In this document: piece by piece, positions 4,362 through 30,130 of the stretch
Layout: the number at the start of each line of letters is the position of its first letter
How positions within the stretch are numbered: the stretch's first letter is position 1
NCBI GenBank assembly: GCA_017883235.1
Contig: JADGNY010000068.1
Coordinates: forward strand, 1-36,899
Length of the DNA stretch: 36,899 nucleotides
Origin: Thermoanaerobaculia bacterium
GTDB lineage: Bacteria; Acidobacteriota; Thermoanaerobaculia; Gp7-AA8
Reading direction: 5' to 3'
The notes under the pieces: model-generated
Databases searched by the model: none
What the model was told of the DNA's origin: nothing
Seen by the model: only the letters and a program-made list of their open reading frames with translations
Translations under genes and position numbers: made by a program

Positions 4362-4370
4362 CCCGCATGC

Positions 4371-6182: not shown

Positions 6183-6286
6183 GGCAAGGGTGAATGATGA
6201 CCGAAGCGGACCGAATTACGCCAGCGGGGTAGGGAAATACCGTCCAGCGTCTCTCCTAATCAGAGAGAGGAATCGGAGGTATCCCG

Positions 6287-7417: not shown

Positions 7418-7445
7418 TTCGTTCGAAACACATCGGGGGTTCCTG

Positions 7446-7517: not shown

Positions 7518-7572
7518 AGATCCGTCGGGCGGGTACACAAGATGCAGAGCACGGTAGCGGAGGTAGTTTTCG

Positions 7573-7719: not shown

Positions 7720-7723
7720 CCGC

Positions 7724-8989: not shown

Positions 8990-9010
8990 CGTACGACGTA
9001 TGCTTCTGCG

Positions 9011-9679: not shown

Positions 9680-10002
9680 GGCCGGACCTCGCGGACCGAT
9701 GAACCTCGCTTTTTTCTGATTGCAAATCGTCAGGATTATTTGTACCATTGCTACTCGTCTTTCCCATCGATTCGTTTCCCATCAGCAAGCTGTCCCGGTG
9801 TGCTGTGTGTGTGCGGCAGCTTTGTGCGAGAGCGCAGCCCGGCGATCCTGGCTTCCGTCGTGGGAGTCGCGTCTGCCCTGCGCAACGGTCGATGCAGATA
9901 TCAGGAGATCAAATGGACAACGACCGCACCCCGTTCGGCTCGGGGCTCGCAGCCTCTGGTACTCGCCATCCCCTCTCTACACAACACAAGGAGCATTTCT
10001 CG
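9680..10002 (+). other. Long leader region before the secreted nuclease gene
   Basis: This 323-bp gap has no gene I can support. Bases 9710-9755 are AT-rich and are the likely promoter area. Bases 9795-9905 are GC-rich with several possible small hairpins (for example TGCG at about 9825 pairing with CGCA). It ends with AAGGAG (9988-9993), the ribosome site of the nuclease gene. A structured leader is possible, but I could not match it to a known riboswitch. Confidence 0.4.
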
Positions 10003-13000: not shown

Positions 13001-15174
13001 TCACGCTCGACGCCGTCAGTGCCACCAACGGCCCTCTCACCTACACGATCGTGACGACACCGTCCCACGGCGTGCTTTCCGGCACCGGCGGATCGCAAAC
13101 CTATACGCCCGCTCCCGATTTCAACGGCAACGATTCCTTCACCTACCGCGTAAGCGACAGCACAGGCACCTCGAATACGTCCACCGTTACGATCTCGGTT
13201 CTCGAGGTGAACGATCCTCCCACGGCCGCAGACGACGCCAAGTCGACGGATGAGGACACCACCCTCACCTTCGCCGGCTCCGATCTGACGGCCAACGACA
13301 GTACAGGCCCGGCGAATGAGAGCAGCCAGACGCTCACGGTCACCGCGGTTACCGCGACCGCCACGACACACGGCAGCGTCACGCTCACCTCGGGAACGGT
13401 GAGCTACGTTCCTGACGCCAACTACAACGGACCGGCGGGCTTCACCTATCAGGTCTGCGACAACGGCATCACCGGCGGCCTCTCCGACTCGCAATGCGCC
13501 ACCGCCACGGTCAATGTCACCGTGAATGAGGTGAACGACCGCCCCACCGCCGCAGACGACGCGAAGTCGACGGATGAGGACACCCCCCTCACGTTCGCGA
13601 GCTCCGATCTCACGGCCAACGACAGCACGGGACCGGCGAACGAGAGCAGCCAGTCGCTCACGGTCAACGCGGTCACCGCGACCGCCAACACGCACGGCAC
13701 CGTCACACTGACATCCGGCGTGGTGAGCTACATCCCCGACGCGAACTACAACGGCGCGGCCAGCTTCACCTACCGCGTCTGCGACAACGGCTTCACCAAC
13801 GGCCTCTCCGATCCGTTGTGCACCACCGCCACGGTCAACGTCACCGTAAACCCGGTGAATGATCCCCCCACCGCGTCGATCGTGACCGTGACGACCTCTC
13901 CCGAAGGAACGGCGGTGACGGCAACGGCGAACGTGAGCGATCCCGACGCGAATGAATCGTTCACCTATGCCTGGAACGTGAAGAAGAACGGATCGCCCTA
14001 CGCGAGCGGCAGCACCTCCTCGATCAACTTCACGCCTGACGACAACGGTGCCTACCTCGTGTCGCTCACCGTCACCGACGCAAGCGGTGCTACCGGCAGC
14101 GACTCCCGCACGATCAACGTCACCAACGTCGCCCCCGTCATCACTTCGGCCGTGCTTTCCGCCGTGTCGATTGATGAGAACGGCAGCGTGACCATCTCCG
14201 GCGCCTTTACCGACCCGGGAACCGCCGATACGCACACGGTGATCGTGAACTGGGGCGACGGCAGCGCCAACTCCATGGTCCCTCTCGCATCAGGCAGCCG
14301 CGTCTTCTCGTTGGCACACCAGTACCTCGACGACGCGCCGTCCGGCACCGCTTCCGACGTTTACTCGATTTCCGTGACCGTTGCGGACGATGACGCCGGC
14401 ACTGCCAACGCCAGCGCTTCGGTGACCGTGAACAACGTCGCTCCCTCGATCAACTCGGTGACCGGTCCGACCATGCCGCTCTCGCTCGGAACGGTAACGT
14501 CCATCAACATCAGCTACAGCGACATCGGCACGCTCGATACGCATACCGCGGTGATCACCTGGGACGACGGCTCCTCGTCTCCGGCTGCCTGCGCCGCGGG
14601 CACGTGTACGGCCACGCACACCTACGCGGCAGCCGGTGTCTACGGCGTCGCCATCAGCCTCTCCGATGACGACACCGGCAGCGCGACGGCGCGGTTCGAC
14701 TACGTCGTGGTCTATGACCCGAGCGCGGGATTCGTCACCGGCGGCGGCTGGATCAATTCACCGCTCGGCGCCTACATCGCCAATCCGAGTCTGACCGGAA
14801 AGGCCACCTTCGGCTTCAGCTCGAAGTATGAGAACGGACAGAGCATACCGTCAGGCAATACACAGTTCCAGTTCCACGCCACGAACTTCGACTTCGCCAC
14901 CACGTCGTACCAGTGGCTGGTCGTCGCCGGAGCGAAGGCGCAGTACAAGGGGACCGGTACCTTGAACGGCAGCGGCCACTACGGTTTCCTTCTCACCGCG
15001 ACCGACGGCGACGTCAAAGGCGGAGATGGAGTGGACAAGTTCCGCATCCAGATCTGGAACCAGCAGACGGGCGACACGGTGTACGACAACGCGCTGGGCG
15101 CGTCTGCCGACATCGACTCCGCCAACCCGCAGCAGATCGGCAGCGGAAGCATCGTCATCCATAGTGGGAAGTAA
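10003..15174 (+). CDS. Very large secreted multidomain DNA/RNA endonuclease (lamin-tail, Calx-beta, DRGH nuclease, cadherin/PKD-like)
   Basis: This is a 1723-aa protein starting at ATG 10003 after AAGGAG; the longer open frame upstream lacks a signal peptide. Domains in order: signal peptide (1-24); lamin-tail domain 1 (25-200, VVISQVYGGGGN); Calx-beta (about 213-322); lamin-tail 2 (about 428-604, VVISQIYGGGGN); Ig-like SbsA/Big_5 (610-720); non-specific endonuclease NUC1 (about 732-963) with the DRGH motif at 814-817 and metal-site region NNQGPW; three cadherin-like repeats (986-1285); PKD-like domains (1290-1573); and a C-terminal 'post-COAP' type domain with the motif TGGGWI. DRGH nucleases cut DNA and RNA using a catalytic histidine and a metal ion. 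Together this implies a secreted or surface nuclease for scavenging nucleic acid. Lamin-tail domains also occur in ExeM-like extracellular nucleases. No sorting motif is evident at the C-terminus. Confidence 0.88.
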   Translation: MNVRRYSLLLLLCFVFLAQIASAQVVISQVYGGGGNAGAPLKNDFIEIFNRGTSPQSLAGWSVQYASTAGSSWQVTNLTAISLAPGQYYLIQEAAGAGTQPNLPTPDATGGIAMALGAGKVALVSNTTALTCGATNNCPGISAIIDLVGFGTGTSSFEGAGPTGTLSNTTAAFRASSGCTDSNNNASDFAVAAPAPRNTAAALHTCTATTPTLSIGNVSALEGDSGTTTFTFTVSLSGGTAPPGGVTFNIATADGSATTANSDYVAKTLTAQSVTSTYTFTVLVNGDTDVEPNETFSVNVTSIVGATNTTATATGTITNDDSPTPPTGTGSANPSSLAVGDTTTMTVNVTPGVKPASTGITVTANLAAIGGSVQPFAGSGNTFTLDATVATGTTLGAKTIPVTISDAQGRSSSTSISLSIVQPPPPADHVVISQIYGGGGNSGATYTNDFVELYNPTNIPFDMAGWTIQYASAAGTAWNNFQTLGGIIGPGQYYLISLASGGATGDPLPAANVFGSINMSATTGKVALVRNGTIQSGGCPISSPNPDVIDFVGYGTSATCSEGNLSAPAPSNTTAILRKNSGNTDTNINRDDFVTGTPTPRRTAIIAELGPSVVNTDPASNGTNEPHDGGVTVNFSEAVDVDAAWYNINCAVTGLHNDATVAHTSDFKSYVITPNANFQFGETCSVTINKDAIHDQDTDDSAPNTDTLFADYNWSFTVVGAGQPAPYPPSVHLTMGNPTNAAADVNQPNNYLMVKPTYSLSYNRDIGRPNWVSWHLDSSWFGSLARVDTFRADPAVPPDWYRVQGFDFSLSGFDRGHMTPNADRDNENRIPINQETYLMSNMVAQAPDNNQGPWANLENDLRTIVAAGDMELYIVSGPAGVGGIGSNGPATTVANGHVIVPAYTWKAALVLPKGDNDLSRVTASTRTIAVIMPNIQGIQNTDWHTYLTTVDAVEALCVCDLFSNVPAAVQNSIEAGVNGTNPPGTANQSVSTNEDASKTFTLDAVSATNGPLTYTIVTTPSHGVLSGTGGSQTYTPAPDFNGNDSFTYRVSDSTGTSNTSTVTISVLEVNDPPTAADDAKSTDEDTTLTFAGSDLTANDSTGPANESSQTLTVTAVTATATTHGSVTLTSGTVSYVPDANYNGPAGFTYQVCDNGITGGLSDSQCATATVNVTVNEVNDRPTAADDAKSTDEDTPLTFASSDLTANDSTGPANESSQSLTVNAVTATANTHGTVTLTSGVVSYIPDANYNGAASFTYRVCDNGFTNGLSDPLCTTATVNVTVNPVNDPPTASIVTVTTSPEGTAVTATANVSDPDANESFTYAWNVKKNGSPYASGSTSSINFTPDDNGAYLVSLTVTDASGATGSDSRTINVTNVAPVITSAVLSAVSIDENGSVTISGAFTDPGTADTHTVIVNWGDGSANSMVPLASGSRVFSLAHQYLDDAPSGTASDVYSISVTVADDDAGTANASASVTVNNVAPSINSVTGPTMPLSLGTVTSINISYSDIGTLDTHTAVITWDDGSSSPAACAAGTCTATHTYAAAGVYGVAISLSDDDTGSATARFDYVVVYDPSAGFVTGGGWINSPLGAYIANPSLTGKATFGFSSKYENGQSIPSGNTQFQFHATNFDFATTSYQWLVVAGAKAQYKGTGTLNGSGHYGFLLTATDGDVKGGDGVDKFRIQIWNQQTGDTVYDNALGASADIDSANPQQIGSGSIVIHSGK
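13207..13854 (+). repeat. Tandem duplication of a 324-bp cadherin-like domain
   Basis: Two adjacent units begin at 13207 and 13531, exactly 324 bp (108 codons) apart. They share long identical peptide stretches such as TAADDAKSTDEDT and LTANDSTGPANESSQ. The high identity compared with the other repeats in the protein points to a recent in-frame duplication. Confidence 0.9.
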
Positions 15175-15191
15175 CCACTAGTTGCAACCGT

Positions 15192-15220
15192 GAGTCGGAG
15201 CCCCAAATGGGCTCCGACTC
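15192..15220. terminator. Strong hairpin between convergent genes
   Basis: GAGTCGGAGCCC (15192-15203) pairs perfectly with 15209-15220 over a 5-base loop. It lies between the nuclease stop and the stop of the minus-strand membrane protein. There is no clear T run on either side, but position and a perfect 12-bp stem favour a bidirectional terminator. Confidence 0.7.
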
Positions 15221-15224
15221 GCGA

Positions 15225-16580
15225 TCACTTCCTGCCCGCCTGCGCCGGCGCGGCCAGCACACCCGCCGGCTGCGGGGCGGGGTACGAGAGCGCGTAGAGC
15301 CGCAGTTGGAACAGCGAGAACCACGCCGCGCCGAAGAGGGCCAGCAGCACGATCAATCCCGTCCGGCGTGTCAGCGACTCCACCAGCGCCGGCACGATTC
15401 CGAAGAGCGCCAGGATCAGCGGCGTGGCCAGCAACACGTCAAAAAGGTAGGGATGAAGCGCCACCGCCTGGCTGAAGACCGCCGCGTAGAGCAGATACGA
15501 ACCAGTCAAGGCGATCAGCGCCACCACCGCGATGCGCGGCGCGCGCCGCCGGACGAACGCGGCCAGCGTCGCCAGCAACGCCGCGGCGCCGCAGAAGAAG
15601 AGCGATTCCCATCGGAAGAGGAATTCATGATTGCCGGGCCGCCCCGAGCGCACGATGTCGCGTCCGAAGGCGATGTCGAGATGATCGCCGTAGAACATCG
15701 CATCGCCATCGAGTCCGCTGCGGTACTGAAAACGGGAGCCGGCCAGTTGCACGTCCGAATGCCTGGTCTCGTACCTGGCGCCCATCAGCTCGATCCCGTA
15801 GACCCCGAGCGCGCAGATCCACGGAACGAGCAACGTCACCACGAGAAGTTTCAGCGGCGGCCGCTCTTCGCGGAGCAGAAGGACCGCGGCAACATACGAG
15901 GCGATGAACATCAGGCCGATGATCGACTCGATGTAGGAGAGTGCGAAGATGGCCAGCGCCTGCAGCACCGTGACAACGCGCGTCCGGCGGCCGCCGAGCG
16001 CCCGCTCTTCCAGCAGCAGAAAACTGATCGACGCCATCAGGGAGTACTCGTGCTCCGACATCCTCCAGAAGCCGGCCAGATTGTCGGGGAAGGTGAACCA
16101 GACCATCTGCACCGCCACGCCGAGGACGAAGGCGTGGAGAGGCTCGGCGCCGAGGCGGCGGGCCAGGCGGTACGTGAACAACGCCAGCAGCGACGCGATC
16201 AGCAGCGCCACCACCTCGTGGTGAAACGCCAGCAGGCGCCAGCCGTACCGGCCGGTCATCGCCATCCACACCTTCTCGGCCAGGAAGCTGCTGATCATGA
16301 ATCCGCCAGTGAAGGAGCGATAGATGATCTTCTCGTCAGGCGTCGGCCAGACCAGCCCATACGACGCGAAGAAACCGTGATGAAGCCAGCGTCCCAGGAT
16401 CGTGTGCGCGCGCATCGGGAGATCGCTGCTGGACAGCGATCCCACCCACCGCTGATGCACGTTCACCCAGACGTATCCGAATGCGATCAGGCCGGCAATC
16501 AGAAACAGCGCGAAGATCGTGACGCCGCCCAGCCGCTCATCACCGGAAGGCGCCGGGTCGTTTTCCTCCGCGATACTCAT
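15225..16580 (-). CDS. Polytopic membrane protein, unknown function
   Basis: This 451-aa protein starts at ATG 16580, whose ATGA overlaps the stop of the esterase gene upstream, so the two are translationally coupled. About ten hydrophobic helices are visible (for example VTIFALFLIAGLIAFGYVW, LLIASLLALFTYRLARRLG, LILALFGIVPALVES). The layout, with charged loops such as MRAHTILGRWLHHGFF, recalls membrane glycosyltransferase-like or O-antigen-type proteins. I see no diagnostic acidic motif, so no function is assigned. A longer frame upstream exists but runs into the esterase gene in another frame. Confidence 0.75.
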   Translation of the reverse strand: MSIAEENDPAPSGDERLGGVTIFALFLIAGLIAFGYVWVNVHQRWVGSLSSSDLPMRAHTILGRWLHHGFFASYGLVWPTPDEKIIYRSFTGGFMISSFLAEKVWMAMTGRYGWRLLAFHHEVVALLIASLLALFTYRLARRLGAEPLHAFVLGVAVQMVWFTFPDNLAGFWRMSEHEYSLMASISFLLLEERALGGRRTRVVTVLQALAIFALSYIESIIGLMFIASYVAAVLLLREERPPLKLLVVTLLVPWICALGVYGIELMGARYETRHSDVQLAGSRFQYRSGLDGDAMFYGDHLDIAFGRDIVRSGRPGNHEFLFRWESLFFCGAAALLATLAAFVRRRAPRIAVVALIALTGSYLLYAAVFSQAVALHPYLFDVLLATPLILALFGIVPALVESLTRRTGLIVLLALFGAAWFSLFQLRLYALSYPAPQPAGVLAAPAQAGRK

Positions 16581-17374
16581 CGAACCGCCTTGCGCTGCTG
16601 GAACAGCCACTCCCAGAGTGCTTCGTCGCCGAACGCGCTGTCCCAGGCGTTGTGACCGACGCCTGGAAACTCGACGTACCGTACGTCGGCCCCTTCCTGT
16701 TTCAACGCCTCGGCCATCTTCCGCGACTCGGAGACCGGAATCACCGGATCGGCATCGCCATGAAAGATGCGGATGGGAAGGTACCGCAGCGCACGTGCGG
16801 TGAATGCATATGGATCCGAAGCGCTCATCGTCAGCGGCGACTGCTGCACCGCCGTCGTCGTCTCGTGCGGCAGCAGCCCTCCGCACACGACCACCAGCGC
16901 CGCCCACGTATCGGGGTGCGCCAGCGCCAGATGGTAGGTGCCATATCCCCCCATCGACAGTCCGGCCAGGTAGATGCGGGAGCGGTCGCCATGAAACTCG
17001 GCGATGCTCTTCTCGAGTGCCGCCATCGCCGCCTCGGCCGGCTCCCCGAGCCAGCGTGTATCGTCCGGCGCCTGCGGAAAGACGACGACCGCCGGCACCC
17101 GCCCTGGATTGGCGCGGATCGCCGCCGCCACCCCGATCTGCGTCGAGCGCAGCCCGTCCATGCCGCGTTCCCCCGAGCCATGCAGAAAAAGAATCACCGG
17201 CCAGCGCTTCGACTCGTCGAATCCGAGCGGCACATAGACCGAATACGGATACGTCGTCCCGCCGACGACGACCGTCCGGATCAAAAAGCCGGTTTCCCGC
17301 GGACACATGGTGCGGCAGGAGAGTACCGCCAAGCACGCGACGGGCAACAGCGAGAGGATGCGGCCAACCTTCAC
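16577..17374 (-). CDS. Lipoprotein alpha/beta-hydrolase, esterase/phospholipase type
   Basis: This is a 265-aa protein from GTG 17374. The N-terminus is a lipoprotein-type signal (ILSLLPVACLAVLSC). The hydrolase core has the oxyanion HG motif in FLHGSGERG, the nucleophile serine in GLSMGGYGT, the acid aspartate in HGDADPVIP and the catalytic histidine in GVGHNAW, all in the normal order and spacing for dienelactone-hydrolase/poly-hydroxybutyrate-depolymerase-like esterases. The likely location is the outer membrane or periplasm. It is the first gene of a two-gene unit, with an ATGA overlap to the following membrane protein. Longer in-frame starts overlap the divergent gene at 17525 and are disfavoured. 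The ribosome site is weak. Confidence 0.82.
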   Translation of the reverse strand: MKVGRILSLLPVACLAVLSCRTMCPRETGFLIRTVVVGGTTYPYSVYVPLGFDESKRWPVILFLHGSGERGMDGLRSTQIGVAAAIRANPGRVPAVVVFPQAPDDTRWLGEPAEAAMAALEKSIAEFHGDRSRIYLAGLSMGGYGTYHLALAHPDTWAALVVVCGGLLPHETTTAVQQSPLTMSASDPYAFTARALRYLPIRIFHGDADPVIPVSESRKMAEALKQEGADVRYVEFPGVGHNAWDSAFGDEALWEWLFQQRKAVR

Positions 17375-17419
17375 GGCAGGCGAGGATACAACGTGAAGCC
17401 GAAGGCGCAGGGTGTCAAC

Positions 17420-17519
17420 GCCCAACTCGGCGCGCCGGCGGACTTCGGCCCGCCGCTTGTTACTATATGCTTCACGTTTCCTGGCGCGGGCCGAAGCCGC
17501 TGAGCTGGGAACGTTAGAC
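17420..17519 (+). other. attC-like folded site upstream of the 17525 gene
   Basis: GCCCAAC at 17420-17426 fits the inverse core RYYYAAC. GTTAGAC at 17513-17519 fits the core GTTRRRY. Between them, 17438-17453 pairs with 17486-17500 over 15 bp, with a single unpaired A (17442) on one side, as in the extrahelical bases of integron attC sites. The central loop is about 32 bases. The start codon of the next gene lies five bases after the core, as in cassettes. No integrase gene is in the window. Confidence 0.5.
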
Positions 17520-17524
17520 ACGCC

Positions 17525-17962
17525 ATGTACACGCATGAGAACTTTGCAGCGGATGTCGCACGGAACTTTGGGTTCCTGGAGACCGAATACGGTATGCGTC
17601 GAGAGCCCCCTCACGTCGCCGGCATCGGCTCCTGGGTCGTGTACGCCAATTCGCTGATGAAGATCATCGTCGAATACGAAACCGGTGGCTATTGTGGTGT
17701 TTCCGTCGTGAATCTTCGCCACGTGAAGCGCGATCCAATGGAGAGATCCGAGTTTGATCTTGAAGAAATTGTCGCCGTCGGCGGGCCGCGACAGACACGA
17801 CGGCAAGAACCCAGATCGATGAGCGAAGCGGTTGCGAAGAGCGCCGAGACGCTCCGCTCGGTGGGCGCGTCTGTGTTGAAAGGCGACTTTGAGGCGCTAC
17901 ACGCCCGGCAGCGAAGACTCGTGGAAGCGGCCCGGCGAAATAACCCGCTGTCGCCTAACTGA
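17525..17962 (+). CDS. Hypothetical protein in a cassette-like setting (145 aa)
   Basis: ATG 17525 begins five bases after an attC-type core site, and the stop TGA (17960-17962) directly follows GCCTAAC (17953-17959), a new inverse core. This tight fit between gene and sites is typical of integron gene cassettes. The protein has FAADVARNFGFLETEYGM, then VYANSLMKIIVEYE and a basic C-terminal helix (ALHARQRRLVEAARR). It looks like a small immunity- or DUF-type cytosolic protein, but I do not recognise the family. Cassettes usually lack their own promoters; the AT-rich stretch TACTATATGC upstream (17461-17470) might supply one. Confidence 0.6.
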   Translation: MYTHENFAADVARNFGFLETEYGMRREPPHVAGIGSWVVYANSLMKIIVEYETGGYCGVSVVNLRHVKRDPMERSEFDLEEIVAVGGPRQTRRQEPRSMSEAVAKSAETLRSVGASVLKGDFEALHARQRRLVEAARRNNPLSPN

Positions 17963-18030
17963 CTCTAAGTAGCGCGTGCAGCGGATGTGGTCCCTCGGGC
18001 GGCTACACCTCCGCGGCACCTCCGTTCACA
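17953..18030 (+). other. Second, weaker attC-like site downstream of the 17525 gene
   Basis: GCCTAAC (17953-17959) fits the inverse core. A hairpin follows: GTGC 17976-17979 pairs with GCAC 18016-18019, GCGGA 17981-17985 with TCCGC 18010-18014, and TGTGG with CTACA, with single unpaired bases between the blocks. A GTT (18024-18026) sits where the core should be, but the next bases (CACA) do not fit RRRY. It is either a decayed site or a chance fold. Confidence 0.35.
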
Positions 18031-18159
18031 ACTCCACTACACTGCAGCGGTGCGTTTACACCGAATTCGTACAATCCGAACCGAAGCTGGTGGGAGCAAA
18101 CCCAGAACCGCGTAGAGCTGACAAACGGCATCAGCCGCCGTCACAGTGGTCCTGAGCTC

Positions 18160-18399
18160 GTGGAGCACGGTATCGCTGTCGCCGAGGTTCTCCGGCTCAA
18201 ACTAAGAAGCAGCTTTCCGCGAAGGCATTTTCGCCTGCATGTATCGTGGAACTCCAAACCTCTCTTCGAGTCGCAGCGTCACTACGAACTGACCCGCAAG
18301 TGCGTTGTGTCGTTTTGGCAGACGCGGCGCGGAGAAGAGCTGTTCCCGGCGATCGAGGAATTCAAGCACGAGGCCATCGGTGAGCTTGCCGTGCCCTGA
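18160..18399 (+). CDS. Small hypothetical protein, possibly 5'-truncated
   Basis: GTG 18160 gives a 79-aa product with SFPRRHFRLHVSWNSKPLFE and a helical C-terminus (FKHEAIGELAVP). The same frame stays open upstream, back to a stop near 17957, and reads protein-like (for example NPNRSWWEQTQNRVELTNG), but holds no ATG, GTG or TTG. The original start may therefore have been lost, or a CTG may be used. The family is not recognised. It lies in the run of small plus-strand accessory genes. Confidence 0.45.
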   Translation: MEHGIAVAEVLRLKLRSSFPRRHFRLHVSWNSKPLFESQRHYELTRKCVVSFWQTRRGEELFPAIEEFKHEAIGELAVP

Positions 18400-18513
18400 A
18401 TGGAAGGGCACTCAGCTCTGCGCTGCACCGCATTTTCCCGGGCCGCGGCGTGTTACAGTGCCGCGTACCGCCCTACGCCGGTGAGGTTGGATCCGTCGGG
18501 CGGCGACGTTCCG

Positions 18514-18903
18514 ATGAGTTCACGACAACACTCCGTGGGCCTCTTGGCGCTGATCCTCGTGTCAGCCGGCATTCTTGTGATCGCGGCGGCCTGCCGCCAA
18601 CCGGGCAACCGTGAACGGTTTCGGCAGGAAGCCAGGGAGCGCCTGATGGCGAAGATCAAAGAAGAACAGGCCATCGAAGCACGCTTGAGACGGGTGGGCG
18701 TAGGCACGCCGTCAACCGAGGTGGTGAAGCAGTTCGGAAATCCAGGCTCGGCCGCTCCATGCAGCAACGCCAACAAGTGCTGGTACTACGACATCTCCGG
18801 GCAGAAGTATTTCATCTGCTTCGACCAACACGACAACGTGGCGTGCGAGGGCAGGGCATATCTACTGCCGCAGCAGTATCCACGGATGCCGCCACCCAAC
18901 TAG
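18514..18903 (+). CDS. Small BamE/OmlA-like lipoprotein (129 aa)
   Basis: The start is placed at ATG 18514 (MSSRQHSVGLL), which puts a signal sequence with a lipobox (VIAAAC) in the right place; the upstream ATG 18400 would add 38 unlikely residues. The mature part has a helical charged segment (ERFRQEARERLMAKIKEEQ), then VGVGTPSTEVVKQFGNPG, the small-residue turn typical of the BamE/SmpA or BLIP-like fold. A domain with cysteines (CSNANKCWYY, CFDQHDNVAC) follows. Its role is unknown; the envelope is the likely site. The stop TAG directly follows ACCCAAC, which fits an attC inverse core, but no good partner core follows. Confidence 0.6.
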   Translation: MSSRQHSVGLLALILVSAGILVIAAACRQPGNRERFRQEARERLMAKIKEEQAIEARLRRVGVGTPSTEVVKQFGNPGSAAPCSNANKCWYYDISGQKYFICFDQHDNVACEGRAYLLPQQYPRMPPPN

Positions 18904-18960
18904 CGTGGGCGGACGCAGGCCGCCTTGCTGCGCCACCCGCCGTGCTGCCGCGTCGCGAGG

Positions 18961-19000
18961 TTTTCTCTGTGTCCTCTGTGTCTCTGTGGTTCAAAAGATC
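18961..19000 (+). repeat. Dispersed CTCTGTGTCTCTGTGG-type sequence
   Basis: This stretch has repeated TCTCTGTG/CCTCTGTG words. I recall closely similar sequences as a common intergenic repeat in Acidobacteriota and Planctomycetota genomes. It occurs once here, so only the internal repetition is visible directly. Confidence 0.4.
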
Positions 19001-19038
19001 TTCATACGAGCGCGGTACAATGTAGCGCGCGGCTACCG

Positions 19039-19743
19039 ATGCCAAAGGTGAAGTCGGCCTTTCTTGATTTCGTTCGATTTGTCGTGAATGGCGACATCGA
19101 CGAACTGTCGCGCCGCCTGGCGGCCAGTCCCTCTCTTGCCACCGAGGCCGCTGAAGTTGGCGCTGCACGTCAAAGCGCGCCGGACTTCTTTTTCGCCGAA
19201 ATCGCTCACTATCTTTACGCCGGCGACACGGCCCTCCATATGGCTGCCGCCGCGTTTCGGTTTCCGGTCGCAAAGCTCCTCGTTGCGCATGGGGCGGACT
19301 GCGGCGCGAGGAATCGCCGCGGCGCAGAGCCCCTTCACGACGCGGCGGACGCCAACCGCTGGGAGCCGGATTCATAGGTGGAGACGATCGAGTACCTCTT
19401 GCCGGCTGGCGCAGACCCCAACGCTTTGGATCGCAGCGGCGTGTCGCCCTTGCACCGAGCCGTGCGAACGCGGTCGCTGCCCGCGGTTCGAGCGCTGCTG
19501 GATGGCGGCGCCAACCCGAGAGCGCCGAACAAGGCCGGGTCAACACCCCTGCATCTCGCCGTTCAGACCACTGGGCGGGGAGGGAGCGGTTCCGAGCACG
19601 CACGCCAGCAGCAGACGGGCATCATCCGGCTGCTGCTGGAACGCGGCGCAAGCCCGACCGACAAAGACGGGAGAGGCAGACAGGTGCATCAGACGGCAAC
19701 GAGTGAGTGAATTCGAAGTTTGCTCATCGGAAGTTCCAGCTAA
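19039..19743 (+). pseudogene. Ankyrin-repeat protein gene broken by two in-frame nonsense codons
   Basis: From ATG 19039 one frame encodes an ankyrin-repeat protein of about 234 residues, interrupted by TAG (19375-19377) after NRWEPDS and TGA (19708-19710) after QTATSE. Both sides of each stop continue the same family. VETIEYLLPAGADPNALD and GVSPLHRAVRTRSLPAVRAL follow the first stop, and IRSLLIGSSS then TAA (19741-19743) follows the second. Family members usually have Q and W at these positions, so CAG-to-TAG and TGG-to-TGA changes are the simplest history. Ankyrin motifs are GDTALHMAAAAF, EPLHDAADAN, SPLHRAV and TPLHLAVQ. The first 112-residue part may still be translated, and GTG 19378 could restart. 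A non-functional relic is most likely. Confidence 0.75.
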
Positions 19744-19830
19744 CCACCAGCTCACGCTGACCGGGGCCGCCTTGCTGGTTTTCCGAGCGCCTGAAAGGCA
19801 ACTTCTCGCCTCGGGCACTCTCATCCTTAG

Positions 19831-20256
19831 ATGAGATTGCCGCGCGTTCTCGCTTCGTTCGTACTAATCGTTCTCGCCGTCACCGCAGGTGCGGCCACAT
19901 CGAGAACGATTGGCCGTGTGACGCTGCATGCGTCACCAGACGCGCGATCTGCGACGTTGGGAACGTTACCTGTCGGCACCATCGTCGAGGTCTCGTCCTG
20001 CTCCCCTTCGTGGTGCCAGGTGACCTGGCAGGGTCGCAGCGGATGGGCGCCGCGCCGGTACCTCACGTCGCCAACGCAGCCGAAGACCGGCCACGGTTAC
20101 CGGAACTCCGATGGCCAGTGGGTCCCCTCACCCACCCAAAGCCCGAACGGGCCGCCGAAGGGAGCAACCGCTCAGTGCAATGACGGGACGTACAGCTTCT
20201 CCCGCCATCGCAGCGGGACCTGTTCTCACCACGGCGGAGTTCGGCAGTGGCTGTGA
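19831..20256 (+). CDS. Secreted SH3-like protein with C-terminal DUF3761-like domain
   Basis: This is a 141-aa protein from ATG 19831. A signal peptide (MRLPRVLASFVLIVLAVTAG) is followed by a bacterial SH3 domain (RVTLHASPDARSATLGTLP, then VEVSSCSPSWCQVTWQGRSGW). A Pro-rich linker leads to a C-terminus CNDGTYSFSRHRSGTCSHHG ending GVRQWL, which matches the DUF3761 pattern with its two Cys and paired His. SH3b domains often bind cell wall peptides. Its likely location is periplasmic or secreted. It is the last gene of the plus-strand small-gene run and faces the minus-strand defence cluster. Confidence 0.8.
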   Translation: MRLPRVLASFVLIVLAVTAGAATSRTIGRVTLHASPDARSATLGTLPVGTIVEVSSCSPSWCQVTWQGRSGWAPRRYLTSPTQPKTGHGYRNSDGQWVPSPTQSPNGPPKGATAQCNDGTYSFSRHRSGTCSHHGGVRQWL

Positions 20257-20278
20257 ACGATCGGTAATGAAATTCACG

Positions 20279-20815
20279 TCACACCGCTACTTCCGCGATC
20301 CAGGAGTCGATTTTTTCGATTGCTGCCGTTGCCTCGGATTGCGTGACGTGTGGTTTGATTTCAAGGAGCTTTGCGGCACGTTTCGCAGCGGGTACGCCTG
20401 GATGCTGCCGTGTGACAAAGAGTGCTGTTGCCAGCGGCTCCAACTGCTTGACACCGAGTGATCCGAGCTCTCTTGCCGTGAATTGAATCGCGTGCGCGTG
20501 CGTTGCAATCGTTTTCGGGAAGCGCTCGCGCAACTGCTCGTAACGATCACCGACGTCATACGTGACTCCCCTCTCGCGAGGCGACACACGAACGATGTCG
20601 TCCGCTTCCATCGATGCAAGGCGATCCTGCAGCTTGAAGGAAAAGGGGCCGTAGTAGTGGATGCGAAACTCATCGGAAAGCGGAACGTCGAAGAGCTCTT
20701 TCATGACGTACGCGGCCTTCTGCAGCAGTGTCTCGCCGCACGGCTTTCCCGTTTCCCGAACGGTTGCGACGAATGTCCCCAGGATTGCTGCCTGCTTGAG
20801 GTATTCCGAGCTCAT
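20279..20815 (-). CDS. Panacea/YwgA-like protein (possible antitoxin-type), 178 aa
   Basis: ATG 20815 is preceded by GAGG four bases away. The protein contains LLQKAAYVMKELFDVPLSD followed by FRIHYYGPFSFKLQDRL. This is the 'K.Y + YGPF' layout seen in YwgA and in SocA/DUF4065 (Panacea) proteins, some of which are antitoxins. The assignment is by pattern only. Its ATGA start overlaps the stop of the short frame upstream, so it is the last gene of the minus-strand SIR2-HerA-KTSC run. A DNA- or protein-binding regulator is plausible. Confidence 0.55.
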   Translation of the reverse strand: MSSEYLKQAAILGTFVATVRETGKPCGETLLQKAAYVMKELFDVPLSDEFRIHYYGPFSFKLQDRLASMEADDIVRVSPRERGVTYDVGDRYEQLRERFPKTIATHAHAIQFTARELGSLGVKQLEPLATALFVTRQHPGVPAAKRAAKLLEIKPHVTQSEATAAIEKIDSWIAEVAV

Positions 20816-21063
20816 GATGCCTCCGTCGCGTCAAGGATGGTTCTGAGGTTTGCATTCAGCCACGTGCGCGCTTCGTCGAGTATCTCCGGCGCCACGAAGA
20901 CATAGTCGAAGACGGCTTTCGGCAGCTTTCCGAGTATCTGCGAGACCTGGATCGATGAGACCACGACTCCGTCGTCACGTTCGACGGCAAAGCGCAGAGG
21001 TTTCGGTGAGGCGGATTCCGGCTTCCCCGACGAACGATCCGCAGATGACGCAGTCGCGCGGCC
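20812..21063 (-). CDS. Open frame in line with the KTSC gene, without a clear start
   Basis: This frame directly continues the KTSC gene beyond its TGA (21064-21066) and ends at TGA 20812-20814, overlapping the next ATG. It reads protein-like: PKPLRFAVERDDGVVVSSIQ, then VSQILGKLPKAVFDYVFVAP and EILDEARTWLNANLRTILD. It has no ATG. GTG 20964 would give only 50 residues. The first residues (GRATASSADRSS) come from a copy of the GCAGATGACGCAG repeat, which may have replaced the original start. It could be a decayed gene or a C-terminal part reached by stop read-through. The family is not recognised. Confidence 0.4.
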   Translation of the reverse strand, partial: GRATASSADRSSGKPESASPKPLRFAVERDDGVVVSSIQVSQILGKLPKAVFDYVFVAPEILDEARTWLNANLRTILDATEAS

Positions 21064-21297: not shown

Positions 21298-23073
21298 TCA
21301 GTTGAATGATTGGTTTCTCCAGTTGAGCACACTGATCTCATATTCTTCTACATCCGGGCGCGAACTCGTCCACAGCGTCGAGGCGATTGGGTCAGAACTC
21401 TTCACGGCATTATCTGCCTGGAAGAATTTAACGCGCGACGGAATACGGACGGCTTCGCCACTGACGATAGCTTCACCAGTTCGCAGGCTTGAAAGCACCT
21501 CTGCCATTTCACGCAACTCATCCTGCATCGCCGCCGAAACATGCCCCTTGTCGCGAGTGTTCGTCATTCTCAGAGCGATAATAGAGCCGCACTGACTCAA
21601 GACTGTCTCGTCCAATTCTGATGGGCGTTGCGTGACGAGCAGCATTCCAACCCCATACTTTCTGCCCTCTTTCGCAATCGCCTGAACGGTCCTAGAGGAG
21701 ATCGAGTCTTCTCCCGCTTTTAGGTAGGCGTGTGCCTCATCCAAGACGACGAGCAATGGCTGGCGTTTCCCGCCGACGAGCGTGTTTTGTCCCCAGTAAA
21801 GCGCGTCGTAGGTGATCTTTAGAATACAGCCTGAAATCGCTTGCATGACGTCTGATGGAATGGCGGAAAGGTCCAGAATAGAAATCGGCACACCGTGGCC
21901 AAACCACGTTGCGAACAAGCGCGGCAAATCATTGGGTGTGCCGCCATCCAGAGCTGGGGAATAACCAACCGGTCTAAACAAGAAATTGTAGCTTTGGTCT
22001 AGGAGCCGAGAACGCATCCCGTCGAGAAATCCAAGGATACCCTTTGCTCTCGTGTTCAAGAAGGGTGCGCTGCTTCCCATACCGGCCGTCGGGTATTGGT
22101 TCGATTTTAGTGTGGCTGGATCACCTGCCGCATTCCGGGTCTCCGGAGTTATCCGGTCAGCCTTAAAAGTGATTCGCTCAAAGTCATCCAACTCGAACCA
22201 AAGCTGGTTAATCGAGAATGCGATCGGGCTATCCGCAGTGATTGCCTCTTCACGTAGTCCGCCAATTACGCCAGCCGAGACACGCTTTAGCTCCAAAACC
22301 TTACCGCGGATGTAGTCTTCATTCTGGTCTGAGAGCTTGCCCGGGAATATTGCCATCAACTCCTTGAAGGGCAGCGCCCAGAATGGAACGCACAGCTCCT
22401 CCTCACCAACTGCGGCATTCGCTCCCACTCTGAAAACGCGGCATTTACCAGACAATGAACTCGCATACTCCCCGTGTGGATCGATCATGAGAACTCGCGC
22501 ACTCGGGAAGGCCTTCTCGGCGATAGCTTTCACGATGATACTCACGGCGTTCGATTTCCCGCTACCAGTTGCTCCAAGGATCGCGCAATGCCTGGAGATG
22601 AGCTTGTCCATGTCAAGTTGCGCGCGGAGGCCCTCCGATGCGCTCTGATGGCCGATCTCAATCGACGATTGGACGTTGTAGCCTCCATATACAATGCGGA
22701 GGTCTTCATTGGTCACGAGATGGACCTGATCTCCCGAGGTGGGCGATTGTAGCACGCCTCTCTCGAAGGATGAACCTATCTGCTCGCCGACCAATATCAT
22801 TCGCAACCAGCGGTGGCCGTCTGCGGTAGACGGATTCTCCTTGTAGGCCATCAACAGCGAGTCTGGCATTGCCAGAACGCCAGCTTGCGTGATCAGCCCA
22901 TACAGGTTGGCGTATCCCAGCGGGATCTTGAGAAAAGAACCGATTTGCCCAATTCTGTAAACTGTGCCGTCAACAATCGGCATGTTCGACGGGTAGTTGC
23001 TGGCCATCTTGATCGCCACCGAGTTCCCGCTGACACTCTCAACCTGGCCGATATGTGTTGGGTTGTGTTTCAT
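21298..23073 (-). CDS. HerA-type ATPase (SIR2-HerA defence)
   Basis: This is a roughly 591-aa HerA/FtsK-superfamily motor. The N-terminal HAS-barrel (HIGQVESVSGNSVAIKMA) is followed by Walker A GATGSGKSNAV near residue 170, Walker B LLVVLDEAHAYL, and the sensor/arginine-finger region TQRPSELDETVLSQCGS and MTNTRDKGHV. HerA proteins form hexamers and, in this family, assemble with SIR2 to degrade nucleic acid or NAD+ on infection. The start is ATG 23073, or TTG 23082 overlapping the SIR2 stop. Translation is coupled to SIR2. Base composition is clearly less GC-rich than neighbouring genes, in keeping with horizontal gain. Confidence 0.9.
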   Translation of the reverse strand: MKHNPTHIGQVESVSGNSVAIKMASNYPSNMPIVDGTVYRIGQIGSFLKIPLGYANLYGLITQAGVLAMPDSLLMAYKENPSTADGHRWLRMILVGEQIGSSFERGVLQSPTSGDQVHLVTNEDLRIVYGGYNVQSSIEIGHQSASEGLRAQLDMDKLISRHCAILGATGSGKSNAVSIIVKAIAEKAFPSARVLMIDPHGEYASSLSGKCRVFRVGANAAVGEEELCVPFWALPFKELMAIFPGKLSDQNEDYIRGKVLELKRVSAGVIGGLREEAITADSPIAFSINQLWFELDDFERITFKADRITPETRNAAGDPATLKSNQYPTAGMGSSAPFLNTRAKGILGFLDGMRSRLLDQSYNFLFRPVGYSPALDGGTPNDLPRLFATWFGHGVPISILDLSAIPSDVMQAISGCILKITYDALYWGQNTLVGGKRQPLLVVLDEAHAYLKAGEDSISSRTVQAIAKEGRKYGVGMLLVTQRPSELDETVLSQCGSIIALRMTNTRDKGHVSAAMQDELREMAEVLSSLRTGEAIVSGEAVRIPSRVKFFQADNAVKSSDPIASTLWTSSRPDVEEYEISVLNWRNQSFN

Positions 23074-23078
23074 GACGA

Positions 23079-24365
23079 TCAAAGCGTGCTGACAGGGCCA
23101 TCAGACGACGATAAATGGTTCAGGAAATCAGTGAGCTTCTCAAAGTCGGGGAGAAGAAAACGGCCAGTTCCTTCCCAACGCTCGTCGCCCATGCGCTCTC
23201 CTGCCTCACCGGAAGGCGTGGCGGCGTCCTCGTCGAAGTATTGGCTCACGCGAATTGATTCGTTCATCGAGTTTGGTTCGTCCCCTAACCTCCACTCGCC
23301 GAATTTCCCGCCGATCACCGCGTGGCGACGCCCATACACGGACATCTTCCCTTCCGTTTCCCGTGTGGCCATATTGCGAACGCTGTTCGCATCATCTGCG
23401 AGACGAAACACACTCTTGTTATCCTGGCCGCGAAACTCGTCGTAGTACATCGCGATCACGTGAGAGTTTGCGCCTCGGCGAAGCGACGTCACAATCCTCT
23501 CATTGATGTGATTGTCCCCAAACGAGTACCCGCATGTGAAGAGAACAGCGTCGTCCTGTTGGAGGAATGCACAGAGCCGATCAATGAGGCCGACATACGG
23601 CTGCTTCTTGGAGGTGTCGTATTTCAGGTGCGACGGATAGATCAAAATCGAATCTGCAGCCGCCATTTTGTCGCGAATTACCGCTTTGTCGCGCTCGCGG
23701 TAGGTCCACCCAAGAGAGCCATGCATTTTCCAGAGCTTTACCAAGCGGGTATATGCGTCGATATCCTCGACTGCTTCTGGACAGAAGAATGGTTCAAAAC
23801 TTCCAGCGAACCCGTCGAAGTAGGGTATCCTAGAGTCCTCAAGAGCTATCTCGAAAAGGTAGTCATAGTTAGTCGTAAAGAGTTCGGCAGGAAACTTTCG
23901 TCTCGCTTTGGCAACCCAGTTGGCCAGACTGGAATGGGCAAGCTTTGGCCGGTCTTCTGGCTTTAGCGCTTCATGGACTGAGACAAGCCTTACGACCTGA
24001 GTCTTTACCAGGTCAGCCAATTTGGAGAAGCCATTCGACTTCAGGCCGTTTAGGGTGCCCCCGCCAATGACTGCACGTTTTGCTTCAATGCTTGAGAGCA
24101 GCGATTCGATGTTGAAGGCGAGTTCACCAATCTCGATCTCAGCTCGAATCTTCTTAACGGCCGCTGCGAATTTAGGTGAATGGGCCTCTACGGCAGCAAC
24201 GATGGCCTGTGTCATCTGCTCGCTGGCTGGAACGCAAACCGTCGGCAGCCCGGTCGCGAATGACGAACCTGCCCCGAAGAGGAATCCGATACGCTTCTTG
24301 TCGGAGATCAGTATTTGATGAATGCCTCTGATGTGTTCGCGTGGGTCGTGGGTGTTCATACTCAT
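23079..24365 (-). CDS. SIR2-family NADase (SIR2_2), SIR2-HerA defence effector
   Basis: This is a 428-aa protein starting at ATG 24365, with GAGG eight bases upstream; the longer in-frame ATG 24428 lacks a ribosome site. SIR2 motifs in order are GFLFGAGSSFATGLP (NAD+ loop, residues 27-41), TTNYDYLFE near residue 163, and KMHGSLGW with the catalytic-type histidine near residue 213. A C-terminal Rossmann part has FTCGYSFGDNHINERIV. SIR2 proteins of this type deplete NAD+ or act with HerA in abortive-infection defence (SIR2-HerA). The stop is four to ten bases from the HerA start. An upstream WYL-like gene may belong to the same cluster. Confidence 0.9.
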   Translation of the reverse strand: MSMNTHDPREHIRGIHQILISDKKRIGFLFGAGSSFATGLPTVCVPASEQMTQAIVAAVEAHSPKFAAAVKKIRAEIEIGELAFNIESLLSSIEAKRAVIGGGTLNGLKSNGFSKLADLVKTQVVRLVSVHEALKPEDRPKLAHSSLANWVAKARRKFPAELFTTNYDYLFEIALEDSRIPYFDGFAGSFEPFFCPEAVEDIDAYTRLVKLWKMHGSLGWTYRERDKAVIRDKMAAADSILIYPSHLKYDTSKKQPYVGLIDRLCAFLQQDDAVLFTCGYSFGDNHINERIVTSLRRGANSHVIAMYYDEFRGQDNKSVFRLADDANSVRNMATRETEGKMSVYGRRHAVIGGKFGEWRLGDEPNSMNESIRVSQYFDEDAATPSGEAGERMGDERWEGTGRFLLPDFEKLTDFLNHLSSSDGPVSTL

Positions 24366-24564
24366 TAAAGCGACCTCGCTTTCGATGTGGTGATTTCTTG
24401 GTCTCCTAATAGGTGCGTCAGCGTGCAAAATGGGTCCTCGTAACTCGTTGGGCGCTGGCTACTTGCGATAACTTACTTGAACACTCGCGACGATCCGTCA
24501 ATTATTTGCATTCACCGGCGAAGCCGCGAGGAACATCAAGGGCCTGGCCTCACGGAGGACGCCC

Positions 24565-25486: not shown

Positions 25487-25556
25487 TTCTCTTCGCGCCT
25501 TCGCGTCTTCGCGTGAGATCGATGTCACGCGAAGCCGCGAAGCCGCGAAGGGGAAG
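25487..25556. repeat. Long GC-rich hairpin after peptide gene 2
   Basis: CTTCTCTTCGCG-type left arm (25487-25516) and reverse-complement right arm (25525-25556) are built from CTTCGCG words. A second hairpin of the same type follows peptide gene 1. Each sits directly downstream of its peptide gene on the minus strand. Confidence 0.8.
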
Positions 25557-25774: not shown

Positions 25775-25846
25775 TTCTCTTCGCGTCTTCGCGTCTTCGC
25801 GTGAGACCGATGTCACGCGAAGACGCGAAGCCGCGAAGGGGAAGAA
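25775..25846. repeat. Long GC-rich hairpin after peptide gene 1
   Basis: The left arm 25775-25804 and right arm 25813-25846 pair over about 30 bp and use the same CTTCGCGTCTTCGCG words as the hairpin at 25487-25556. It lies between the two peptide genes. It probably separates their transcripts or stabilises them. Confidence 0.8.
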
Positions 25847-25853: not shown

Positions 25854-26030
25854 TTAGGGGTGCGGCCAGACAATCTCGATCTGGTCGAGCGCGCGCACGA
25901 CCGCCCGCCTGATCGCCGCGAGCAAGCCTCCACCTTCCCGCCCATCACGTGTCGTGCTGAACGCCGAGGTGGTCGAGAGACAACTGACGAACAGACAGAG
26001 AACGGCTGCTTTCCGGAATGATCTCGACAT
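25854..26030 (-). CDS. Small secreted peptide, copy 1 (58 aa)
   Basis: GGAGG lies six bases before ATG 26030. The product is MSRSFRKAAVLCLFVSCLST, then TSAFSTTRDGREGGG, LLAAIRRAVVRALDQIEIVW, PHP. It has a signal peptide and a basic amphipathic mature chain ending in WPHP. The start is 291 bp from the start of copy 2, and each gene is followed by the same hairpin, so the whole gene-plus-hairpin unit was duplicated. The signal peptides have diverged more than the mature chains, which suggests selection on the mature peptide. No partner export or modification gene is visible nearby. Confidence 0.72.
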   Translation of the reverse strand: MSRSFRKAAVLCLFVSCLSTTSAFSTTRDGREGGGLLAAIRRAVVRALDQIEIVWPHP

Positions 26031-26144
26031 ACAAAACCTCCGAGCGGGCGCCTCGTTTCGAGCTCGCCCTCCTGATAGGAGTGTCGGTGGAGAGCATTTC
26101 CCCTACTCATGATTCTGGAAACACGTGCGGTCTGGCAGCCCGTC

Positions 26145-26165
26145 GGGCGAGACACCAGCGCTCCG
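26145..26165 (+). repeat. Dispersed GGCGAGACGCCAGCGCTCC-type motif
   Basis: This degenerate copy (GGGCGAGACACCAGCGCTCC) of the motif at 205-223 and 33895-33913 lies between the peptide genes and the first 21-bp array. Confidence 0.6.
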
Positions 26166-26199
26166 TCGCGCTAACTGAATCGGATCCCCCGGAGGAAGT

Positions 26200-26565
26200 T
26201 CATCGCTCTGCGGAGCAAAACTTCTGCTCTGCGGAGCAAAACTTCTGCTCTGCGGAGCAAAACTTCTGCTCTGGGGAGCAAGATTTCTGCTCTGGGGAGC
26301 AAAACTTCTGCTCTGGGGAGCAAAACTTCTGCTCTGGGGAGCAAAACTTCTGCTCTGGGGAGCAAAACTTCTGCTCTGGGGAGCAAACTTTCTGCTCTGG
26401 GGAGCAAAACTTCTGCTCCGCGGAGCAGACTTTCTGCTCTGCGGAGCAAACTTTCTGCTCCGCGGAGCAGCGTCTTCGCCTTGTGCTTTCAGACCGTCGC
26501 TCTGCAACGCCTTGAAACAAGGGCAGTTGCAAGGGCTTAGGTGAATCGTCTCGATCATCTGTCAT
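26200..26565 (-). CDS. Possible heptad-repeat protein over the first 21-bp array
   Basis: From ATG 26565 a 121-aa frame starts MTDDRDDSPKPLQLPLFQGV and then repeats CSAEQKF/CSPEQKF units of seven residues to the stop at 26200. Because the array has no stop in any frame, open length alone is weak evidence. The non-repeat N-terminus looks protein-like, and one change is synonymous (AAA/AAG), but GCG/CCA changes alter the residue. A coding role is possible but unproven. Confidence 0.3.
   Translation of the reverse strand: MTDDRDDSPKPLQLPLFQGVAERRSESTRRRRCSAEQKVCSAEQKVCSAEQKFCSPEQKVCSPEQKFCSPEQKFCSPEQKFCSPEQKFCSPEQKSCSPEQKFCSAEQKFCSAEQKFCSAER
26205..26470. repeat. Tandem array of 13 x 21-bp hairpin units
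   Basis: Thirteen units start at 26206 and every 21 bases to 26458. Each has TGCTC, a 4-base loop, GAGCA, then a 7-base spacer close to AAACTTC. The loop is TGCG in units 1-3 and 12, TGGG in units 4-10, and CGCG in units 11 and 13. GAGCA can pair with the TGCTC on either side (loop 4 or loop 7). Unlike CRISPR, spacers are only 7 bases and nearly identical. Both strands read as heptapeptide repeats. Confidence 0.92.
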
Positions 26566-26601
26566 TTATTCCCACTCTTGACGCTGAAATCACCGGTCCA
26601 A

Positions 26602-26700
26602 CTGATGCGCATCAGCAGTCAACTGGTGCGCGGAGGCAGTGAGCTGCCTTTTGGAGGCAGTGAGCTGCCTTTCAGAGGCAGTGAGCTGCCTTTCGGTCAC
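26602..26700. repeat. Second 21-bp array with the same hairpin plan but different sequence
   Basis: Three clear units (26635, 26656, 26677) read GGCAG, TGAG, CTGCC, then 7 bases (TTTTGGA, TTTCAGA, TTTCGGT). Two further, diverged units lie at 26602 (CTGAT, GCGC, ATCAG) and 26623. The layout 5+4+5+7 = 21 is the same as in the first array, although the stem sequence differs. On the minus strand (GTG 26700 to TGA 26590) five heptads of the form (S/T)xRQLTA are read. Leu (CTC/TTG) and Ala (GCC/GCT) codons change silently between units, which favours a protein-level constraint. Confidence 0.85.
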
Positions 26701-26790
26701 TGCGTTTCCCAAGGAGCTTCTGACTAAACGGAGCGGTGGACGTCCTGCCGCATTGTTACCAGGCGAATGTGTGGGGTGTGCCGGGTCGGC

Positions 26791-26809
26791 GGCGAGACGC
26801 CAGCGCTCC
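26791..26809 (+). repeat. Dispersed GGCGAGACGCCAGCGCTCC motif
   Basis: This copy of the motif found at 205-223 and 33895-33913 is followed by the GC-rich words TCGCGACACG and TCGCGGCTCG. It lies just before the YbjN-like gene. Confidence 0.8.
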
Positions 26810-26933
26810 CTCGCGACACGTCGCGGCTCGTCGCGGCTCCGTCGCGCGCTCGCGCAACCGCTCGCAATCATTCCCTCATGATATCCGCCGCATTCGCGGC
26901 ACGAGCGACTCCTTTGCTTTACAATCAGCGGCG

Positions 26934-29731: not shown

Positions 29732-29918
29732 ACGTTCTCCTCTCAACTACGATTTGGGATGGACAAACCACGCACAGTGTAATCTGTTCGTTCCTCCGAG
29801 TCCATCAGTATTTAAGGACAGAATCGCTGATCGGGGACGAAGCTGGCGCGATGGGGAGTCGCCCGCAAATCTTACGCGGAAGGCCGGGCGGAGGCAAGGG
29901 GTTTGTGGGGTCTAGTTC
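29732..29918. other. Region upstream of the RHH gene
   Basis: It contains the ribosome site and probable promoter of the RHH gene on the minus strand. No gene was seen. Confidence 0.4.
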
Positions 29919-30130
29919 ATCCTGACGGCGAGCACAGCGAGCCTGTCAGGATCTCCGGTGAGACCGCGCGGCGGTCGGTTCCAGCAGAGTTCGAAGTCTC
30001 CCATCCTGACGGCGAGCGCAGCGGAGCCTGTCAGGATCTCCGGTCAGACCGCGCGGCAGTCGGTTCCAGCAGAGGCCTCGCGATTCCACCCGAGATCCTG
30101 ACAGGCTCGCTGCGCTCGCCGTCAGGATGG
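29919..30130. repeat. Three copies of a CATCCTGACGGCGAGCGCAG element (two direct, one inverted)
   Basis: Copies at 29919-29989 and 30001-30074 are direct, about 82 bp apart, and extend over TCCGGT(G/C)AGACCGCGCGG and GGTTCCAGCAGAG. A third, inverted copy lies at 30094-30130. Each copy is itself near-palindromic (ATCCTGACGG ... CTGTCAGGAT), so each forms a hairpin. They lie just past the stop of the ABC permease, where they may end transcription. Confidence 0.85.

Follow-up and report, generated by a model that had tools for sequence, protein, structure and literature searches.

Two arrays of 21-bp repeat units found in the window (the whole 36,899-nt stretch that was analysed, from the genome of a Thermoanaerobaculia bacterium) represent, in palindromic form, a class of bacterial satellites that is already known and still unexplained. 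The observation is real and more general than the preliminary description of this DNA had suggested, and each of the two arrays is one locus of a multi-locus family. The explanation that we somewhat favour is that palindromic seeds would be expanded by slippage and then dispersed, with a unit length of about two helical turns held by a reader of duplex DNA, a presumed partner protein with an equally presumed function. Palindromic units in families of unrelated sequence point to such a reader, one that would recognise duplex geometry, or else to inverted copying during replication, and they provide a testable handle on the question.

Both arrays, originally described as two 21-bp arrays within 500 bp, were recovered by TRF and by a list of units. 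Array 1, of the TGCTC satellite family, occupies positions 26,204-26,469 of the forward strand; its first stem base is at 26,204, and the TRF call runs from 26,205 to 26,469 with a period of 21. It consists of 13 units of 21 bp with the pattern (C/T)GCTC-NNNN-GAGCA, that is, a 5-bp stem, a 4-nt loop and a 5-bp stem, followed by seven bases which in most units read AAACTTC or AACTTTC. The number of units and the stem TGCTC/GAGCA were as first reported, except that the first stem is CGCTC and the remaining 12 are TGCTC. The loops follow the order TGCG (three units), TGGG (seven), CGCG, TGCG and CGCG, in agreement with the ordered loops noted earlier. Three reading frames are open throughout the array, as can happen when a 21-bp unit contains no stop codon.

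Array 2, of the GGCAG family, lies at 26,631-26,696 on the same strand (3.1 copies by TRF), and its units, GGCAG-TGAG-CTGCC plus a 7-bp spacer, start at 26,635, 26,656 and 26,677. The earlier count of three to five units was correct for the three that are in register; the CTGAT element that had been counted along with them is an isolated perfect 14-bp palindrome, CTGATGCGCATCAG (CTGAT-GCGC-ATCAG; 26,602-26,615, forward strand), situated 33 bp upstream of the first GGCAG unit and out of the 21-bp register. Between the two arrays lies a dispersed element (26,501-26,581, forward strand) which includes the motif TTTATTCCC (26,563-26,575); copies of it are found beside arrays on contigs C243 (88% identity), C118 and C56, the last adjoining a GGCAG array.

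The probability that a shuffled 21-mer of the same composition contains a 5-4-5 hairpin was 0.0265-0.0294, and that of both arrays jointly was roughly 1 in 1000 by chance, before allowing for choice. At about 0.03 per shuffled unit, each array by itself is weak evidence, and the two alone are therefore suggestive and not decisive.

The source genome (G000; 6.92 Mb in 246 contigs, of which C101 carries the window) contains TGCTC arrays at eight loci on seven contigs: C101, C130 (two), C228, C5, C146, C243 and C118. At C130, C5 and C146 the TGCTC array is abutted by an array of another family, TTGATC, whose core differs from that of TGCTC by an exchanged pair. GGCAG arrays were found on seven contigs (C56, C71, C78, C101, C103, C125 and C227) and reach 24.5 units at C71; the GGCAG pattern is present in only one of the three congeners, G000, with no match in G001 or G002. 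Neither window array is present at the corresponding locus of these two congeners. The gene downstream of the arrays, TY-Chap1/YbjN, is present in 16 of 18 family genomes, and in G001 and G002 the similarity beside it ends at about window positions 26,889-26,914.

A search blind to the stems was carried out in the 18 family genomes, using the array 1 spacer sequence AACTTT repeated every 21 bp with one mismatch allowed and with the cores left unspecified. It yielded 29 matches in G000, 49 in G001 and one in G016, so that three of the 18 genomes contain such arrays (G016 at one place), with no match in the 15 others; the same pattern read backwards gave 0, 4 and 0 matches in these three genomes and 2 in G017. 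When no mismatches were allowed, an order-wide search of 19 genomes returned matches in G000 and G001 only. The cores accompanying this spacer were GATCGAC (C201, C168, C194 and C208), GTTGA (G001 C9), CTCC together with CTCT (G001 C18, C26 and C66) and AGCTCG (G016 C4); in the array at C181 the palindrome is no longer than CTCGAG. The AACTTT signal is thus common to many families, and it is absent from GGCAG and from the families labelled L170, L176 and L195.

A random sample was also drawn, consisting of bases 1001-21000 (or to the contig end) of randomly numbered contigs, 20 from G000, 10 from G001 and 10 from G002; 27 contigs of G000 that had already been examined were omitted. Arrays were counted if their units measured 9-70 bp with at least 2.5 copies and a TRF score of 50, and TRF rows were dropped when more than half overlapped by a better-scoring row. 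Units of 21-22 or 63-64 bp accounted for 7 of the 13 arrays in the G000 stretches (309,299 bp) and for 6 of the 9 in those of G001 (177,904 bp), and the G002 stretches (96,010 bp) contained no array of any size at this score. At a laxer threshold (score 40, 2.8 copies), 12 of the 32 arrays in G000 and G001 had units of 21, 22, 43, 63 or 64 bp, 9-bp units being the next commonest (6 of 32); the seven arrays then detected in G002 (120,511 bp) were all of 9-12 bp. Grouping at 72% circular identity placed 54 arrays from stretches of G000, G001, G002 and G016 in 31 families. In a coding test based on greedily selected ORFs (130 aa or longer, GC3 above 0.72), 21 of 25 array loci were free of overlap with a qualifying ORF and four overlapped one.

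Palindromic bias was measured by a stem score, defined as the longest perfect stem in the circular consensus unit with loops of 0-7 allowed, and compared with that of shuffled units; this score was used in place of a circular-reflection score, which was weak per family. The 12 families of 20-22-bp arrays from the random stretches had a mean stem of 5.00 compared to 3.40 after shuffling (sd 0.23; 0 of 1000 shuffles), and the nine of the random-stretch families with at least five copies had 5.33 compared to 3.48. Over all examined stretches of G000 and G001 the corresponding values were 4.55 and 3.38 (31 families), and 4.48 and 3.38 (27 families) after removal of units with AACTT/AAGTT. A mirror-symmetry control displayed no excess. 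Other unit sizes showed a small excess, both in the random stretches (15 families, 3.13 versus 2.72, 25 of 1000 shuffles) and in all examined stretches (26 families, 3.04 versus 2.71, 18 of 1000). The idea that unrelated arrays have a plan in common beyond chance was therefore upheld in families drawn at random. The strict 5-4-5-7 layout proposed along with it was not: across families the stems span 2-8 bp and the loops 0-6, and in 9 of 31 families the stem is 3 bp or shorter.

Several related measures add less. The presence of two dyads per unit, 10.5 bp apart, was considered and set aside; the best axes are mostly 21 apart in sum, and this is not separate evidence because an odd period with one dyad already yields such a spacing. 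Symmetry calculated from the spacer only was 0.37 compared to 0.25 in shuffles (21 families, 8 of 2000), a modest effect which leans on the non-independent AACTTT families. Scanning a collection of genome contigs with an exact palindromic pattern yielded 27 stretches, several of them coding by eye, the pattern itself demanding a palindrome. In viral contigs the palindromic pattern had no matches, as against 13 for a non-palindromic control, and no general preference for palindromic 21-bp units is accordingly claimed.

The class of satellites with 20-21-nt repeats was reportedly defined by Subirana and Messeguer in J. Bacteriol. in 2020. No description of palindromic 21-nt satellites was encountered in the literature searched, that class-defining paper lying outside the search. 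Regular repeats with palindromic parts are likewise a property of CRISPR arrays, whose spacers could not be accommodated within a 21-bp period. As described in parts of a further article by Subirana and Messeguer (PMC8161180), non-coding bacterial satellites of this kind have a constant repeat size of 20-21 or 52 nt and occur in many bacterial groups as several same-length families per genome, which differ in sequence and are species-specific; the repeats of one species share a short signal (Table 2 of that article). The same sections suggest a role of nucleoid proteins or of small RNAs, the length being that of two helical turns, and set at least four repeats as the search criterion; among the satellite-rich genomes that the article names are the Bacillus simplex group and Paenibacillus. 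On most of the features tested, the two arrays agree with this class. Constant length, unrelated families, non-coding location and species specificity were all found for them; as to the number of repeats, array 1 has 13, and array 2 has 3.1 in the window, fewer than that criterion asks for, and belongs to a family that reaches 24.5 at C71. What distinguishes the arrays of this lineage is that their variable part is palindromic beyond chance. The text of PMC8161180 contains no word beginning with "palindrom", "hairpin", "symmetr" or "stem", although according to parts of that article the 52-nt repeats often have signals and "their reverse" together in one repeat. The palindromic bias is an addition to a known satellite class, and its novelty is not established.

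For a distant comparison, 20 random 20-kb stretches of Neobacillus sp. OS1-33 were analysed. Five of the 12 arrays detected had units of 21 bp and two had units of 51-52 bp, as described for Bacillus. The seven families of 19-22-bp arrays had a mean stem of 3.14 compared to 3.24 in shuffled units (709 of 1000 shuffles reached it), indicating no bias, even though one of the stretches holds the array that had led to the choice of this genome via the palindromic pattern, which if anything would favour the stem. A distant genome hence has the 21-bp length in common with this lineage but lacks the palindromic bias, which suggests that the bias is lineage-specific; satellites of about 21 nt do not, in general, require hairpins.

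Covariation within the stems was calculated for eight families as the mean excess (z) over the two best pairing axes. It was -0.4 for GATCGAC, 2.0 for TGCTC, 3.8 for TTGATC, -1.1 for CTCT, 0.0 for CTCC, -0.6 for GTTGA, -0.6 for NNCTCC and -2.1 for GGCAG, i.e. positive in two families and at or below zero in six. The TTGATC value depends on a single variable pair for each axis, and axes unrelated to the pairing reach 7.0 in this family; in TGCTC the highest axis of all is a pairing axis (2.8). In the outer pair of GATCGAC, 42 distinct units were distributed as C-G 18, T-G 10, C-A 7, T-A 6 and C-T 1, with no preference for pairing and no compensatory changes in this variable pair. Stem covariation, put forward at the outset as the test of the shared plan, was consequently positive in two of eight families only. 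The preliminary description had also proposed that the plan would be a coincidence if related genomes carried only one of the arrays or if the stems did not covary. In partial agreement with these conditions, neither array was seen at the congeners' locus and covariation is inconsistent; this does not make the plan a coincidence, since families chosen without regard to it show it again. The original interpretation, a selected structure or a repeat-generating process, is a fair reading given the excess of stems, although not one consistently backed by covariation. Overall, the palindrome seems to reflect the way in which families originate or are maintained, and not pair-by-pair repair.

These data bear directly on the possibility that the arrays are transcribed as hairpins, acting as small RNAs or as an RNA sponge, with selection on the RNA stem. 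The predicted folds are strong (z-scores of -11.85 for array 1 and -4.63 for array 2), albeit such values are to be expected from any array of palindromic units. The positive covariation in TGCTC and TTGATC and the exchanged pair that separates their cores are in line with this scenario, as is the discussion of transcription in parts of PMC8161180, according to which B. coagulans transcribes its 52-nt repeats, and 52-nt RNAs would fold into double-helical regions. The inconsistent covariation weakens it: the remaining six families show none, the TTGATC signal is exceeded by unrelated axes, and the variable GATCGAC pair does not favour pairing. No Rfam family matched the window at the gathering score, the 30 sub-threshold matches in 26,000-26,900 being mostly miRNA hairpins. 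We consider an RNA function very unlikely.

A different scenario, which we regard as possible though doubtful, is that the arrays are selected binding sites, along which a dimeric DNA-binding protein would polymerise on one helical face, with a role in nucleoid organisation or in the regulation of neighbouring genes; both the length and the dyad would then be under selection. A unit of 21 bp corresponds to two helical turns, and palindromic cores suit dimers. Stem columns were more conserved than loop columns in all five families whose loop exceeds one base, and the short AACTTT signal found across different cores resembles the species signals listed in Table 2 of PMC8161180. Against this stand cores that differ wholly between families within one genome, and a mixed outcome for stem and spacer, the stem being the more conserved in six of eight families and the less conserved in two. 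Furthermore, among 20 neighbouring proteins (a part of the neighbours) at 13 array loci, no function was common to most. They include UvrB, a RecG-like helicase, a dienelactone hydrolase, a glycosyl transferase and two histidine kinases, and for five of the 20 no Pfam entry passed the applied cut-off.

The arrays are dispersed, as indicated by composite arrays that recur in different flanks: the same composite is present at C130 and C5 (92% identity over 529 bp), and another at C3 and C92 of G001 (96% over 217 bp). Sequences beside the arrays recur as well. With one mismatch allowed, GTGGGAATAAANG occurs seven times in G000, compared to three for its backwards control, and six of the seven copies adjoin the six TGCTC loci that are uncut by a contig end, those at C5 and C146 being cut and outside this tally. 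The motifs GGAATAAA/TTTATTCC were not found in the 309 kb of random stretches, nor at any of 15 other arrays within 0.8 kb on each side where sequence reaches. In G001, within the stretch 15,000-20,500 of C9, GGAATAAA and TTTATTCCC form an inverted pair beside the GTTGA array, on its downstream side; this motif also accompanies the TGCTC arrays of G000. A dispersed repeat, GGCGAGACRCCAGCGCTCC.., is located on each side of both window arrays (26,146-26,170 and 26,791-26,815), and a repeat resembling it also adjoins the array at C146.

Insertion as a transposon was considered and rejected. Of the flanking direct repeats, the 25-bp one at the window arrays is itself a further dispersed repeat, and a 29-bp one at C181 is array sequence. 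Among 19 array loci, the only long direct repeat in the flanks that was neither dispersed nor array sequence was found at C228, other loci having short repeats or array sequence, and no consistent target-site duplication was seen. At that single locus (5,227-5,772), the TGCTC array is situated at the end of a glycosyl transferase gene and is flanked by an exact direct repeat of 43 bp, which gives the impression of an insertion accompanied by a long duplication.

A related possibility is that the arrays are mobile or REP/BIME-like elements moved as passive cargo by a RAYT (Y1) transposase. REP/BIME elements are likewise short intergenic palindromes present at many loci per genome, and parts of PMC3733652 describe a tag of four nucleotides, GTAG or CGTC, that accompanies the palindrome. 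The arrays described here differ in being head-to-tail repeats of 21 bp, with up to 24.5 units (C71), in unrelated families, and the window contig has no Y1 gene. The dispersed copies with common parts, the presence of GTGGGAATAAANG beside every uncut TGCTC locus and the linked element at the GGCAG array of C56 would suit a cargo, and 19-22-nt arrays were detected by TRF within 2 kb of three of the nine Y1_Tnp matches in G000. This proximity is, however, close to chance (about one locus expected, from eight arrays per 309 kb) and unlinked to the window arrays. Y1_Tnp was found on none of the seven contigs with the eight TGCTC loci, and among the GGCAG contigs only on C71, about 17 kb away. Together with the missing target-site duplications and the restriction of the flanking motif to some loci (0 of 15 others within 800 bp), this makes transposase-driven movement highly improbable. 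About 1 kb from one Y1 transposase, on C87 (about 2,350-2,800), there is a dense, scrambled set of repeats of GGCCCTTCCTTC and GAGAGGGTCAG.

The reading that we favour, palindromic seeds expanded and dispersed under a length constraint, may be written as a cycle. A local template switch or a hairpin event during replication would create a palindromic seed, and slippage would then amplify it in tandem, favoured by the self-folding unit. According to parts of PMC8794818, template switching can create perfect stems in one event, and thus offers a replication process yielding reverse-complement repeats; the cases in those parts concern RNA genes and compensatory changes, the latter not being consistently present here. 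The arrays would next be copied into further intergenic locations, in some cases along with adjoining sequence, as the recurring composites demonstrate, and would decay by substitution, for which consistent compensation is not observed (two of eight families point otherwise). Finally, a reader of duplex DNA, probably a polymerising nucleoid protein, would need two-turn spacing and so keep arrays of about 21 bp. This last step is the weakest of the cycle: the length preference is observed, and the protein is postulated. Searches of the neighbours, of Y1 genes and of the flanks identified no binding protein or recombinase for the arrays. Further difficulties for this reading are the short stems of 9 of 31 families, the small excess at other unit sizes and the unbiased satellites of Neobacillus. 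Template switching, moreover, should repair mismatched stems and so produce covariation, which is not consistently seen.

A bolder version, which we think unlikely, is that 21-bp palindromic units of any sequence are made by a dedicated, sequence-blind enzyme of this lineage, or are kept by a polymerising protein equally indifferent to sequence. If this were true, new families with the same architecture would be born repeatedly, and it would be a DNA shape that is written or preserved, and not a sequence.

Other repeats and genes were observed in the window. A dispersed repeat based on TTCGCGTCTTCGCGTGA is present twice, at 25,491-25,556 and 25,779-25,844, and also has matches at C243 (92-94%) and C9 of G001 (82-84%). 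At 29,918-30,130 an 85-bp tandem duplication with CATCCTGACGGCGAGC is followed by the same end in inverted orientation, and at 13,203-13,874 a 324-bp tandem repeat of 2.1 copies, its length a multiple of three, lies within an ORF of 1808 aa. Upstream of the arrays, on the reverse strand (21,298-24,428), adjacent genes encode a HerA-like ATPase and a SIR2-like protein (best PADLOC matches: HerA, E=5.1e-142; SIR2, E=1.8e-105), likely a SIR2-HerA anti-phage defence pair.
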